From Flavobacterium sp. CF136 (lineage in GTDB: Bacteria > Bacteroidota > Bacteroidia > Flavobacteriales > Flavobacteriaceae): 64,000 bases of DNA. Shown here piece by piece: positions 52,130 through 56,813 of the stretch. Made by a program: the position numbers and the translations under genes. The stretch lies in contig NZ_AKJZ01000021.1 in assembly GCF_000282055.1 (NCBI RefSeq), positions 1-64,000 of the forward strand, written 5' to 3'. The notes under the pieces are model-generated. The model saw nothing but the letters and a program-made list of their open reading frames with translations. It was not told where the DNA came from and searched no databases. How positions within the stretch are numbered: position 1 is the first letter of the stretch; each line of letters begins with the position of its first letter.

Positions 52130-53833
52130 ATGGCCTTATCTGAACAAGAAATCATCCGAAGAGAGAAACTTCAAAACTTACGCAACTTAGGAATCAATCC
52201 TTATCCTGCTAATCTTTTTCCTGTAAATCATACTTCAAAGCAAATTAAGGAGTCTTTTGAGGAAGGTAAGAAGGTGATTGTTGCCGGACGTTTGATGAGT
52301 GTGAGAGATCAGGGAAAAGCTTGTTTTGCTGAATTGCAGGATAGTGAGGGACGTATTCAATTGTACGTTAATCGTGATGTTTTGTGCGAAGGTGATGATA
52401 AAACTTTATACAATCAGGTATTTAAAAAACTGACCGATTTAGGAGATTTTATTGGTATTGAAGGTGAATTGTTTACGACTAAAGTGGGTGCCCAATGTAT
52501 TCGTGTTGACGGATTTACTTTTTTGAGTAAAACATTACGTCCGCTTCCTTTACCAAAAGTTGACGAGGACGGAAATGTACACGATGCTTTTAATGATGCT
52601 GAATTGCGTTACAGAATGCGTTATGTAGATTTGACGGTGAACCAAAACGTAAAAGAGACTTTCGTAAAACGTACGAAATTGTTTAACGCAATGCGTGACT
52701 TTTTTAACACTGCAGGTTATCTTGAGGTTGAAACTCCGGTTTTACAGCCAATTCCCGGTGGTGCTGCAGCGCGTCCGTTTATTACACATCACAATTCACT
52801 AGACATTCCGCTTTACATGCGTATTGCAAACGAATTGTATCTAAAAAGATTAATCGTTGGTGGATTTGAAGGTGTTTATGAGTTCTCTAAAAACTTCCGT
52901 AACGAAGGAATGGACAGAACACATAACCCGGAATTTACCGCTATGGAAATATATGTAGCCTACAAAGACTACAACTGGATGATGAACTTTGCCGAAGATC
53001 TTTTGGAGCATTGTGCTATTGCCGTAAACGGTACTTCGACTGCTGTTTTTGGAGAGCACACAATCAACTTCAAAGCGCCTTATGCCCGTGTAACGATGAC
53101 AGATTCTATCAAACATTTTACCGGTTTTGATATTTCCGGAAAAAGCGAAGACGAATTGTTTGAAGCTGCCAGAGGAATGGGAATTGATGTTGATAAAACA
53201 ATGGGTAAAGGAAAACTGATTGATGAGATTTTTGGAGCAAAATGCGAAGGAAATTATATTCAGCCTACTTTCATTACGGATTATCCTAAAGAAATGTCGC
53301 CTTTGTGTAAAGAACACCGTGACAATCCGGAATTGACAGAGCGTTTTGAATTAATGGTTTGCGGTAAAGAAGTAGCGAATGCTTATTCTGAATTGAACGA
53401 CCCGATTGATCAAAGAGAACGTTTTGAAGACCAGATGCGCTTGTCTGAAAAAGGAGATGATGAAGCGACAGGAATTATCGATGAGGATTTCTTAAGAGCT
53501 CTTGAATACGGAATGCCGCCAACATCCGGAATGGGAATTGGAATGGACCGTCTGATGATGTTCCTTACAAATAATGTTTCTATTCAGGAAGTATTATTGT
53601 TTCCGCAAATGCGTCCGGAGAAAAAACAGATTCAGATTGAATTATCTGATGAGGAGAAATTTATCGTAGATTTATTGAAAGGAAATGAAAATAAAATGGA
53701 TTTAACGCAATTAAAAATTACTGCAAATTTAAGCGGTAAAAAATGGGATGCGTCTATGAAAAACTTATCTAAACATGGTTTGACCAAAGTGGCTGTTGAA
53801 GGTGATTTTAAATTTGTGGAGTTGGTGGGGTAA
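52130..53833 (+). CDS. lysS: Lysyl-tRNA synthetase (class II)
   Basis: This 567-residue class II LysRS has an N-terminal OB-fold anticodon-binding domain (about 45-160). Motif 2 is FRNEGMDRTHNPEFT near 255 and motif 3 is GMGIGMDRLMMFLT near 467. It charges tRNA-Lys. The protein is about 60 residues longer than E. coli LysS because of a C-terminal extension (about 500-567; IELSDEEKFIVDLLKGNENKM onward) that looks like a small winged-helix-type domain. Confidence 0.97.
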   Translation: MALSEQEIIRREKLQNLRNLGINPYPANLFPVNHTSKQIKESFEEGKKVIVAGRLMSVRDQGKACFAELQDSEGRIQLYVNRDVLCEGDDKTLYNQVFKKLTDLGDFIGIEGELFTTKVGAQCIRVDGFTFLSKTLRPLPLPKVDEDGNVHDAFNDAELRYRMRYVDLTVNQNVKETFVKRTKLFNAMRDFFNTAGYLEVETPVLQPIPGGAAARPFITHHNSLDIPLYMRIANELYLKRLIVGGFEGVYEFSKNFRNEGMDRTHNPEFTAMEIYVAYKDYNWMMNFAEDLLEHCAIAVNGTSTAVFGEHTINFKAPYARVTMTDSIKHFTGFDISGKSEDELFEAARGMGIDVDKTMGKGKLIDEIFGAKCEGNYIQPTFITDYPKEMSPLCKEHRDNPELTERFELMVCGKEVANAYSELNDPIDQRERFEDQMRLSEKGDDEATGIIDEDFLRALEYGMPPTSGMGIGMDRLMMFLTNNVSIQEVLLFPQMRPEKKQIQIELSDEEKFIVDLLKGNENKMDLTQLKITANLSGKKWDASMKNLSKHGLTKVAVEGDFKFVELVG

Positions 53834-53848
53834 TTGAATTTTCATAAT

Positions 53849-53896
53849 AAAACAATAAAAAAGAGCTTCGATTTTGAAGCTCTTTTTTATTGTTTT
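53849..53896. terminator. Strong bidirectional terminator between lysS and rloB-like gene
   Basis: A perfect 21-bp stem (53849-53869 paired with 53876-53896; core aagagcttc/gaagctctt) has a 6-nt loop and A- and T-tracts built into the arms. It serves both convergent genes. Confidence 0.92.
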
Positions 53897-53897
53897 G

Positions 53898-54485
53898 TTA
53901 TTTTTGATTTTCTAAATAAATAACCAATTCATCAACATTCGTAAAAGGATTTAAATTAAAAACTTCAACACCATCATTATTTTGAATAACCGACAATCTG
54001 GTCTTTTCTGCATTTGATTTCCCAGTAGTCATTTTATCTTTTAGAATTGAATAATGTTTAAAGTTATTCTTTTCATAACTCTCCATTCCTATACATTTCT
54101 TTAATTCTTTTTCTAGTTCTGCTTCGGAAGCAAAAGCTTTTGTTGAATTTTTGTAATGAAACAGGAACCACAATTCAAAACAAATACTTGAAAAAATTAC
54201 ATCGGCATTTTTACTAGAAGCAAGTTTAAAAACATCACCTCTTTTTGGAAAATTATCATGATCAAAAACTACGAATATTTTTTCAAAACCATCTTTCTTT
54301 GCATTTTTTAAAACATCAGTTACATCACCTTTACAATCAACTATATTTACTGCAATTGTTTTAGGTAAACCTAAATCTTCTTTCAGCGCATTAAAGTAAT
54401 TTTTCTCCGTTAAACCTTCGCAAAGAATTAAAACCTTTTCCTTAAACGATCTTGTTTTAAAATTATTAATTGGTCTCTTAGCCAT
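53898..54485 (-). CDS. RloB-like TOPRIM-type protein
   Basis: This 195-residue protein of the RloB family has a TOPRIM-like acid set: Glu23 in ILCEGLTEKNYF and Asp75/Asp77 in VVFDHDNF, plus the RloB signature FELWFLFHY (103-111). It is probably a metal-dependent nuclease. It forms a two-gene unit with the upstream AAA ATPase: the ATPase stop and this start share one base (TAATG). ATPase plus TOPRIM pairing recalls PARIS (AriA-AriB), OLD and Gabija antiphage systems; a defence role is inferred. Confidence 0.82.
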   Translation of the reverse strand: MAKRPINNFKTRSFKEKVLILCEGLTEKNYFNALKEDLGLPKTIAVNIVDCKGDVTDVLKNAKKDGFEKIFVVFDHDNFPKRGDVFKLASSKNADVIFSSICFELWFLFHYKNSTKAFASEAELEKELKKCIGMESYEKNNFKHYSILKDKMTTGKSNAEKTRLSVIQNNDGVEVFNLNPFTNVDELVIYLENQK

Positions 54486-55717
54486 TATTTAGAATTTATA
54501 AATTCAATTAATTCATGTCTAAAAGTTTCTCTAGCAATATTAGGCACTGCACCCAATCTTCCTTCGATATACCATTTTTCAAAATTTCCTTCTCTAATTC
54601 CTTTAATATCAGAAACAGTATATAATTCTGTTTCTCCTTTTGAATTTTTCTCTACTAAATTAATTTGATCTCGTCGTAAATTATTTTCAGGACTTAATAA
54701 AGTTGTATCATGAGTTGCGAAAATAAATTGTGCCCCTTTTTTATTTATTTCAGGATCATTAAACAATCCTAATATATATTGTGCAATTTCAGGATGCAAA
54801 CTTCTTTCAAATTCATCAACAATTAAAACTTGTCCTGCTAATAAAACATGTAATATAAAAGGAATAAAAGCTATAACTCTTTGTGTTCCAGAAGACTCAT
54901 CTTCAAAATCGAACTCTATTTTCTCTTTTTTACTATTCAAATGAAATGTTTTAATCCCACCTTCTTTTTCTTCAAAATCAACTACTTGTGTATCAATTTT
55001 TTGAATTAGTGATTTAGATAATTTCAATATTTCTCCCCAAGCACCTAAATTCCCAAACATAACCTTACTAAACTGCTCGTTAAATTTATCCGAATGCAAC
55101 TTATCTGTGGTAAGAATAAGCATTTTAACGAACTTTTGAAAAACATCTTTTGCAATTTCAACATTCTCTAATGCAGCCTTTCCTAAAAACAATTGATTTT
55201 CATTTGTACGTTGCTTGATACTCTCAAAAATCCCCTCATATCCGTTTCCTTTACTAAATTCTTGGCGATGTCTTTCAAAAATTTTCACTTTCAATCCTTT
55301 TGGAAAACTAAACAGGGACTCCTTTAATATTTCATTTCTAAAAACTTCAATACTATAAACATACTTTATTTGATTAACTAAAATATCAATTGAAAAACAA
55401 GAAGGTTTATGTAAACTTTCTTCATTTAATTTAAAAGGCTCATACAAATAAATAATTTCATTTGGCTTATTATCTGTTGATGATTTAAAAAAGATTAAAA
55501 AATCACTCAAAGCTCTAATAATATTGCTTTTCCCACTTGCATTTGGTCCATAAATGGCTGCAGAAGTTAATGCATAGTAATCTTTATTTTTAGTAGCATC
55601 CGGATTTGTCTTCTTGATTACGTTTATTAGATTTTTTAAATCACTTGGCACCATCGACAATTCAACCATTTCATTAATGGATCGAAAATTAGATACTCTA
55701 AAGTTTAACAACATCAC
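54485..55717 (-). CDS. AAA-family (SMC/OLD-like) ATPase, partner of RloB-like protein
   Basis: This 410-residue ABC-type ATPase has FRVSNFRSINE at the start, Walker A GPNASGKS at 57-64, signature-like DESSGTQRV near 270, Walker B VLIVDEFERSLHP near 297-309 and an H-loop FATHDTTLL near 330. A coiled or helical insertion lies between Walker A and the signature. The family (AAA_15/AAA_21) serves as sensor in OLD, PARIS and RloAB-type modules. A TATATTTG -7 box (complement of 55745-55752) lies 28 bp upstream, so the pair is an independent unit inserted between lysS and the nitrate locus. Confidence 0.88.
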   Translation of the reverse strand: MMLLNFRVSNFRSINEMVELSMVPSDLKNLINVIKKTNPDATKNKDYYALTSAAIYGPNASGKSNIIRALSDFLIFFKSSTDNKPNEIIYLYEPFKLNEESLHKPSCFSIDILVNQIKYVYSIEVFRNEILKESLFSFPKGLKVKIFERHRQEFSKGNGYEGIFESIKQRTNENQLFLGKAALENVEIAKDVFQKFVKMLILTTDKLHSDKFNEQFSKVMFGNLGAWGEILKLSKSLIQKIDTQVVDFEEKEGGIKTFHLNSKKEKIEFDFEDESSGTQRVIAFIPFILHVLLAGQVLIVDEFERSLHPEIAQYILGLFNDPEINKKGAQFIFATHDTTLLSPENNLRRDQINLVEKNSKGETELYTVSDIKGIREGNFEKWYIEGRLGAVPNIARETFRHELIEFINSK

Positions 55718-55744
55718 TTAAGGGTTTAATTTGTAAATAAATTA

Positions 55745-55752
55745 CAAATATA
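55745..55752 (-). promoter_or_regulatory. -7 promoter element of the ATPase-RloB unit
   Basis: The minus strand reads TATATTTG, matching TAnnTTTG, 28 bp upstream of the ATPase start. Confidence 0.5.
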
Positions 55753-55796: not shown

Positions 55797-56813
55797 CTAT
55801 ACCAACAAAGCCCTCTTATTCTCAATATCATTCTCGCTCAACAAAGATTTTATATTACCAAAAGTCACCAAAGCAATCTGCGTTAAAGCTTCAGTGGTAA
55901 AAAAAGCCTGATGGGCTGTAACCAGAACATTCGGAAAACTCATTAAACGCTGAATCGCATCGTCCTGAATAATATCTTCTGATAAATCTTTAAAAAACAA
56001 TTTCTCTTCCTGTTCATAAACATCGATTCCTAAATAACCAATTTTACCTTCTTTTAAACCTTCAATTACGCTGGCAGTTTCAATTAATCCTCCTCTGCTT
56101 GTGTTGATAATCATCACATGCTCTTCCATCAAGGCAATTGATTTTTCGTTGATGATATGTTTGGTCTGTTCATTTAATGGGCAATGGAGTGAAATAATAT
56201 CGCCTGATTTAAAGATTGTTTCAAGAGATACAAATTCGACTCCGTCTTTTTCCATTTCAGGATTGGTGACAATATCATATGCCAGAACTTTACAGCCAAA
56301 ACCTAAGGCAATTTTTGCAAAAGCTTTGCCTATATTTCCAGTTCCTATAATTCCGATTGTTTTTCCGAATAAATCAAAACCCAATAATCCGTTTAAAGAA
56401 AAATTCTGTTCTCTTACTCTGTTGTAAGCTTTGTGTGTTTTTCTGTTTAAGGTTAAAATCATCGCCATTGCGTGCTCTGCGACTGCCTGAGGCGAATATG
56501 CGGGAACACGACAGACTTTTAAATTGTATTTTTTGGCTGCCTCTAAATCTACATTGTTAAATCCGGCGCAGCGCAAAGCAATAATTTTTACGTTTTTTTC
56601 TGCCAACTGCTTAATCACAGCTTCATTGACAATGTCGTTCACAAACACACAGACAATAGAAGCATTTTCAATTAAAATAACCGTCTGCTGATTGAGCTGC
56701 GTTTCATAAAAATCCAGTTCAAAACCAAACTCATTATATTTATTAAAAAAAACTTTGTCGTAAGGCTGAGTTGAAAAGAAGGTAATTTTATTGGTTTCAG
56801 CAGCTAAAGTCAT
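55797..56813 (-). CDS. D-2-hydroxyacid (D-lactate) dehydrogenase
   Basis: This 338-residue NAD-dependent D-isomer-specific 2-hydroxyacid dehydrogenase has nucleotide-binding GIIGTGNIG near 155, catalytic Arg in NTSRGG near 238, Glu in GIDVYEQEE region and His in VTAHQAFFT near 300. Closest to fermentative D-lactate dehydrogenase (pyruvate to D-lactate). It is the last gene of the nitrate-reductase unit, 19 bp after the small membrane protein gene, suggesting oxygen-limited expression. Confidence 0.92.
   Translation of the reverse strand: MTLAAETNKITFFSTQPYDKVFFNKYNEFGFELDFYETQLNQQTVILIENASIVCVFVNDIVNEAVIKQLAEKNVKIIALRCAGFNNVDLEAAKKYNLKVCRVPAYSPQAVAEHAMAMILTLNRKTHKAYNRVREQNFSLNGLLGFDLFGKTIGIIGTGNIGKAFAKIALGFGCKVLAYDIVTNPEMEKDGVEFVSLETIFKSGDIISLHCPLNEQTKHIINEKSIALMEEHVMIINTSRGGLIETASVIEGLKEGKIGYLGIDVYEQEEKLFFKDLSEDIIQDDAIQRLMSFPNVLVTAHQAFFTTEALTQIALVTFGNIKSLLSENDIENKRALLV

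Follow-up and report, generated by a model that had tools for sequence, protein, structure and literature searches.

A probable AbiL-type ATPase-nuclease gene pair in a variable slot beside lysS of Flavobacterium sp. CF136

Organization of the locus

The window, i.e., the whole stretch of 64,000 nucleotides from the 5.1-Mb genome of Flavobacterium sp. CF136 that was analyzed here, carries an ATPase gene followed on the same strand by a gene of the RloB family (Table 1). The pair is bordered by lysS on one side and, on the other, by a presumed hydroxyacid-dehydrogenase-like gene. As originally predicted, the two ORFs overlap; they share a single base, at which the start codon of rloB (ATG at 54485) meets the stop codon of the ATPase gene (TAATG). 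The ATPase gene starts with GTG at 55717, and the next ATG is found at 55714. The genes lysS and rloB are convergent, with 64 nt between the end of lysS and the rloB stop codon, and this gap is occupied by a single long terminator-like hairpin (−30.9 kcal/mol, z −9.5). No integrase-like ORF was observed between lysS and the dehydrogenase gene in the window, and no tRNA genes were found by ARAGORN in its 64 kb.

We take TAnnTTTG to be the −7 box of Bacteroidota. All 14 module copies have the TATATTTG box just upstream of the ATPase gene, but the palindrome that overlaps this box is perfect in only 6 of the 14, the window among them, so the box may be a promoter alone rather than an autoregulatory site. 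The palindrome has its sole exact match in the CF136 genome at this position and three more sites with one mismatch; the reversed pattern, which served as the control for this search, gave one site in the genome.

Table 1. Features of the region between lysS and the dehydrogenase-like gene in the window
Feature	Position	Strand	Remarks
lysS, lysyl-tRNA synthetase	52130..53833	+	Fixed border of the putative exchange slot; outside the module
Long hairpin where lysS and rloB converge	53845..53900	.	Probably a two-way terminator
rloB (abiLii), 195-aa likely TOPRIM-type nuclease, predicted effector	53898..54485	-	E23, E27, D75, D77, and E104 are predicted metal ligands
abiLi, 410-aa ABC/OLD-like ATPase (AAA_21), predicted sensor and inhibitor	54485..55717	-	ATPase motifs intact
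Promoter-like stretch upstream of the ATPase gene	55729..55752	-	TATATTTG box (55745-55752) overlapping the palindrome ATTTGTAA-N5-TTACAAAT (55729-55749)
Presumed hydroxyacid-dehydrogenase-like gene	55797..56813	-	Other border of the putative slot in the CF136 genome; outside the module

Family assignment and the predicted nuclease site

Against the PADLOC models, the ATPase matches AbiLi best (PDLC02335, 2.3e-84, top of 45 families), and AriA is second (3.3e-36). The best match of RloB is AbiLii (PDLC02337, 9.6e-22), of which the best stretch covers only positions 25-88 of 170. RloB also matches Pfam PF13707 (101 bits; cut-off, 31.5) and the ATPase matches AAA_21 (119 bits; cut-off, 27), while no NCBIfam model matched either protein at its cut-off. 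The closest named relatives of RloB are from Flavobacterium. In the Lactococcus prophage proPhi7, an adjacent pair in the same order shows 27% and 27% identity to the window partners; each of these genes is annotated "abortive phage resistance protein," and PADLOC scores them as AbiLi and AbiLii.

The ATPase retains a Walker A motif (GPNASGKS, from residue 57), an SSGTQ-type signature (ESSGTQR, from 274), a Walker B motif (LIVDEF, from 298), and an H-loop (from 334). The window pair is an intact, ordinary member of an already known kind of defense system; i.e., an AbiLi-type ATPase gene is present, an AbiLii/RloB gene adjoins it downstream on the same strand, and the ATPase motifs and acidic nuclease motifs are intact. 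AbiL acts as a phage-resistance system elsewhere (excerpts of PMC3985639 and PMC10440598). The view that RloB-based modules are little characterized was therefore overstated, since AbiL is such a module, although it is correct that the mechanism of AbiL is poorly known; no worked-out mechanism was found in the literature searched.

The AlphaFold2 model of RloB (13 sequences; pLDDT 71.2, pTM 0.70) has a core of alternating strands and helices. Foldseek gave no match to this model in the PDB at E ≤ 0.001. With VIA-align, hypothetical protein PH0156 came first (Z = 8.6, 157 aligned, 3.9 Å), the C-terminal TOPRIM structures of OLD were next (6nk8, 6njx, 6njw, and 6njv; Z = 7.9-7.3), and unrelated Rossmann-like folds appeared from Z = 6.8 down with the small TOPRIM 2i5r among them (Z = 6.0), where a Z under 8 may reflect merely a common arrangement. 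The structural comparison suggested in the original prediction favors a TOPRIM fold for RloB but does not by itself prove it; AriB was not among the matches listed by Foldseek and VIA-align, an absence that excludes nothing. A relation of RloB to OLD_TOPRIM by HHPred is also described in an excerpt of PMC10440598. No solved sequence relative was found by phmmer, and the best candidate by alignment profile (0.003) was rejected as an unrelated synthase that matched through an expression tag-like stretch.

Among 19 RloB proteins, E27, Y30, D75, D77, S99, E104, W106, and H110 are invariant, and in a weighted set of 51 proteins position 23 is Glu (95%) or Asp (5%) and position 77 is Asp in 98%. Glu23, Asp75, and Asp77, which lie at the positions originally given, are conserved across the 51 sequences together with E27 and E104. 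Compared by spacing, these five acids fit the two-metal site of the B. pseudomallei OLD nuclease (BpOLD), in which metal A is assigned to E400, D455, and D457 and metal B to E404 and E508 (excerpt of PMC6755086). The structural alignment starts at residue 14 of RloB and residue 391 of the OLD chain, which suits a putative pairing of E23 with E400 and of E27 with E404 in the model. RloB is likely a TOPRIM nuclease, on moderate evidence from the fold to which the residues of the metal site add weight.

The named structural relatives of the RloB model are the TOPRIM domains of OLD, which are DNA nucleases (excerpts of PMC6755086 and PMC10568477), and the ATPase model (pLDDT 73.8) is closest to Rad50/SMC heads and PtuA (Z = 20.7-17.3 among the matches listed). 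Both relationships would agree with a split OLD nuclease, in which the ATPase and RloB jointly degrade or nick phage or host DNA and cut no tRNA. However, TOPRIM domains also cut RNA, as described for AriB, which is compared with RNase M5 (excerpt of PMC12409363); the fold therefore does not decide between DNA and RNA, and we regard a split OLD nuclease as possible but rather doubtful.

The original prediction also set the pair beside PARIS, a comparison that does not hold if it is read as kinship. When a profile of 51 RloB proteins was aligned by hhalign with one of six proteins of DUF4435 (the AriB family), chosen from 17 loci, the probability was 2% (E = 0.025, 65 columns), and RloB matched neither the AriB models of PADLOC nor Pfam DUF4435 at E ≤ 1, so PARIS kinship of RloB was rejected. 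Between the ATPase profiles there is a match along the Walker B region (93.5% over 68 columns), as expected for this class of ATPase, and the AbiLi model is far better than that of AriA. Lysines K60, K63, and K64 of the window RloB lie between E23 and D75 and were considered as AriB-like, tRNA-gripping residues; they were rejected because, in the alignment of 51 sequences, basic residues do not reach 50% in their columns, and no AriB-like tRNA grip is thus shown. An AriB relative (L165) gave chance matches only against the PDB. DUF4435 has matches in 16 of 199 genus genomes, with 13 above the cut-off, and long ORFs with such a match and a Walker A motif (L168-L170, L174-L177, and L181) are perhaps fused AriAB-like proteins in Flavobacterium.

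Distribution of the module and the slot beside lysS

A homologous ATPase gene lies at most 300 nt upstream of rloB on the same strand at 53 of 54 RloB loci; the exception is L009, in which the sequence ends 355 bases upstream of rloB. These 53 loci include 4 of 4 viral contigs. The four viral relatives were obtained with L004 as the query, and no close relatives on viral contigs were obtained with the window RloB, L040, or L011. In a Klebsiella phage, a gene for an ATP-binding protein adjoins the RloB gene. The pairing of the ATPase with RloB is far beyond chance. RloB was found in 27 of 199 genus genomes and in 37 of 295 class genomes (35 above the family cut-off). It also occurs on 15 records of plasmids and on 4 of phages, two of which represent a single phage, and rloB is an accessory gene. 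The expectation of an ATPase and a TOPRIM-type nuclease with anti-phage marks was borne out by this patchy distribution, by the plasmid and prophage records elsewhere, and by the matches to the AbiL models. Unusually long RloB proteins are encoded in L027 (436-1881, 481 aa) and L026 (1138-2187, 349 aa).

AAA-RloB pairs also appear in a toxin-antitoxin network (excerpt of PMC10440598), and in genome G153 (L028/L127) a premature stop interrupts rloB beside lysS, with the ATPase gene still open. Both observations favor a selfish toxin-antitoxin pair, or a housekeeping pair, with no role in defense. A core role is nevertheless excluded by the presence of RloB in just 27 of the 199 genus genomes, AbiL confers phage resistance elsewhere (excerpts of PMC3985639 and PMC10440598), and prophages carry AAA-RloB pairs, and we consider such a nondefensive pair improbable.

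At 16 of the 54 RloB loci, i.e., in 14 distinct genomes (L032 repeats L016, and L033 repeats L017), lysS lies beside RloB, and these loci are exactly the close clade with at least 68% identity to the window RloB. The other 38 loci represent 37 genes, as L027 and L030 coincide, and their identity to the window RloB does not exceed 37%; lysS was found at none of them in the flanks read, which were mostly 1.5 kb on each side. Conservation of the lysS neighborhood, which had been raised as a check on the pair, is complete within the close clade (16 of 16 loci) and was not seen in the flanks read at the 38 distant loci, and of the two attributes that would have pointed to housekeeping, strict synteny holds in the clade but core status does not.

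The 3′ side of lysS was read in 80 genus genomes. A set of 58 of them comprised the CF136 genome and L071-L127, with lysS at least 88% identical, among the matches listed; G031 and G046 (partial lysS) were excluded, and ORFs under 70 aa were ignored. In this set, the first genes 3′ of lysS are the RloB-ATPase pair (6 genomes), the PADLOC candidate system M29A/B (7), a ParE pair (6), a ParD-like gene alone (4), a protease/935-aa pair (4, one also with M29), core genes directly (24), or other arrangements (8, including L071, in which the dehydrogenase gene is in two pieces). The name M29 comes from a PADLOC match of one representative and the name ParE from a Pfam match of one, and all other assignments were made by clustering. 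No RloB pair was found beside lysS in 23 more distant loci (L128-L150). As a local control, the junction between the neighboring genes c2 and dehydrogenase was inspected in the 30 of these 58 genomes that keep both; an ORF of at least 70 aa is present between them in 0 of 30, and cargo is present at the lysS side in 14 of the same 30. This control is a single junction rather than a null for the whole genome, and related genomes do not count as independent.

M29, an AAA_15 ATPase with a small protein that has no Pfam match at E ≤ 0.01, lies directly after lysS in L072 (399-2155) and also follows lysS in L078, L099, L101, L110, L119, L123, and L200. At E ≤ 1e-60, M29A matches were found in 10 genus genomes, in nine of which it is beside lysS and in one elsewhere (G109, 46% identity). 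Two of the nine belong to lineages with diverged lysS, namely, G056 (lysS 78% overall) and G149 (lysS 54% over the last 82 residues, with M29A in pieces). Other relatives of M29B are located elsewhere. In the slot of L085 (5558-6111), L075, L091, L096, L103, and L118, a ParE-type toxin is found together with a small partner gene, and this pair stands behind M29 in L200. The partner gene occurs alone, perhaps as a remnant, in L083, L095, L115, and L121; in L104 and L120 such a lone partner gene follows the RloB pair. Further cargo, a trypsin-like protein and a 935-aa protein, is found in four genomes (L102 1830-5864, L090, L099, and L109).

The original prediction called the adjacency to lysS curious but probably coincidental, noting that AriB cleaves tRNA-Lys (also in an excerpt of PMC12409363). 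The position is not random; all 16 loci of the close clade (14 genomes) adjoin lysS, which would be compatible with a tRNA-Lys nuclease whose adjacency is functional (matched expression or guarding of LysS, for example). Yet the same slot is filled by M29 in 7 and by a ParE pair in 6 of the 58 genomes, and no lysS lies in the flanks read at the 38 distant loci, so the position is not evidence for a function in tRNA-Lys, as the original prediction had allowed. The convergent orientation of lysS and rloB with a strong hairpin between them, and the place of RloB outside the AriB family by profile (2% probability), also argue against a functional link, which we consider highly improbable. A shared exchange slot, and not a link to tRNA-Lys, best accounts for the position of the pair.

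Among the 14 module-bearing genomes, the nucleotide distances of module and lysS are hardly correlated (Spearman 0.14, p = 0.17), and the pairs compared are not independent of one another. The lysS tree is rejected by the module alignment (AU p = 2.4e-39), as is the module tree by the lysS alignment (AU p = 2.1e-7). Rejection is also mutual between rloB and the ATPase gene (4.3e-6 and 2.2e-6). In these trees several internal branches are poorly supported, and the data include one partial lysS and the broken rloB of G153. These comparisons indicate that the module spread horizontally, and the mutual rejection of the rloB and ATPase trees points to partly separate histories in which ATPase and nuclease genes were partly reassorted. 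Exchange may have occurred by recombination in the conserved flanks. In a broader form, the 3′ end of lysS would be a dedicated, integrase-free exchange slot that passes AbiL, M29, and ParE pairs between Flavobacterium species, with AbiL and M29 each having a lysS-bound clade and with AbiL sensor and effector reassorted; we consider the case for this proposal evenly balanced. No lysS or Flavobacterium defense hotspot was found in the titles and abstract openings searched. With a known system, a candidate system, a toxin-antitoxin pair, and several cargos without a name, the slot is a simple place to seek further defense modules of Flavobacterium. In the close clade, ATPase and nuclease genes seem to have been reassorted, and its natural variants could serve to identify the part of the module that senses phage.

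Proposed mechanism and comparison with known systems

It is quite probable that the window pair is an AbiL-type (AbiLi-AbiLii) two-gene anti-phage module in which a nuclease restrained by the ATPase causes abortive infection. In PARIS, AriA holds AriB, a phage trigger releases AriB, and AriB cuts tRNAs with two metals (excerpt of PMC12409363; PMC11455837). By analogy with PARIS and from the published toxicity of AbiLii, the ATPase would hold the TOPRIM nuclease inactive and serve as the sensor; a phage product would disturb the ATPase and free the nuclease, which would act with two metal ions (E23/D75/D77 and E27/E104) on a nucleic acid vital to the cell, and the infected cell would stop before phage is made. 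The RloB-type toxin of C. algidicarnis is neutralized by its AAA partner (excerpt of PMC10440598). On the other hand, AbiLii of F. nucleatum is toxic in E. coli and was not neutralized by AbiLi, and L. lactis AbiLii alone is nontoxic in E. coli (excerpt of PMC3985639), which weakens a simple inhibitor-toxin reading. The model with the ATPase as putative inhibitor and the nuclease as putative effector is the best one by analogy. Within the AbiL model, the chances are about even that the substrate is RNA (a tRNA), DNA is a reasonable second possibility, and any other substrate is unlikely.

AbiL is listed among the systems in which an ABC ATPase is combined with a Toprim domain (excerpt of PMC12409363). 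PARIS (AriA-AriB) resembles the window pair in having an ABC ATPase and a TOPRIM effector as separate proteins, and the window ATPase also matches the AriA model (3.3e-36), but the effector of PARIS is a DUF4435 protein (AriB) and that of the window pair is RloB. OLD nucleases and Gabija GajA likewise combine an ABC ATPase with TOPRIM and have matching two-metal residues. The single-chain OLD family carries the ATPase and TOPRIM in one protein, whereas the window pair is two ORFs, and Gabija has a UvrD-like helicase (GajB), whereas no such ORF lies beside the window pair. The mad3-mad4 genes of MADS are also similar; the window ATPase matches mad3 (2.7e-12) and RloB matches mad4 (5.4e-6), both more weakly than AbiL. 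Unlike what we presume to be the gene content of MADS systems, the window neighbors are lysS and the dehydrogenase gene and not more MADS genes. The AbiL system (AbiLi-AbiLii) of Lactococcus lactis has the same gene order, nearly equal sizes, and the same ATPase and RloB families; the window pair differs in that it is chromosomal and beside lysS, and the 27% identity was measured against the Lactococcus prophage pair.
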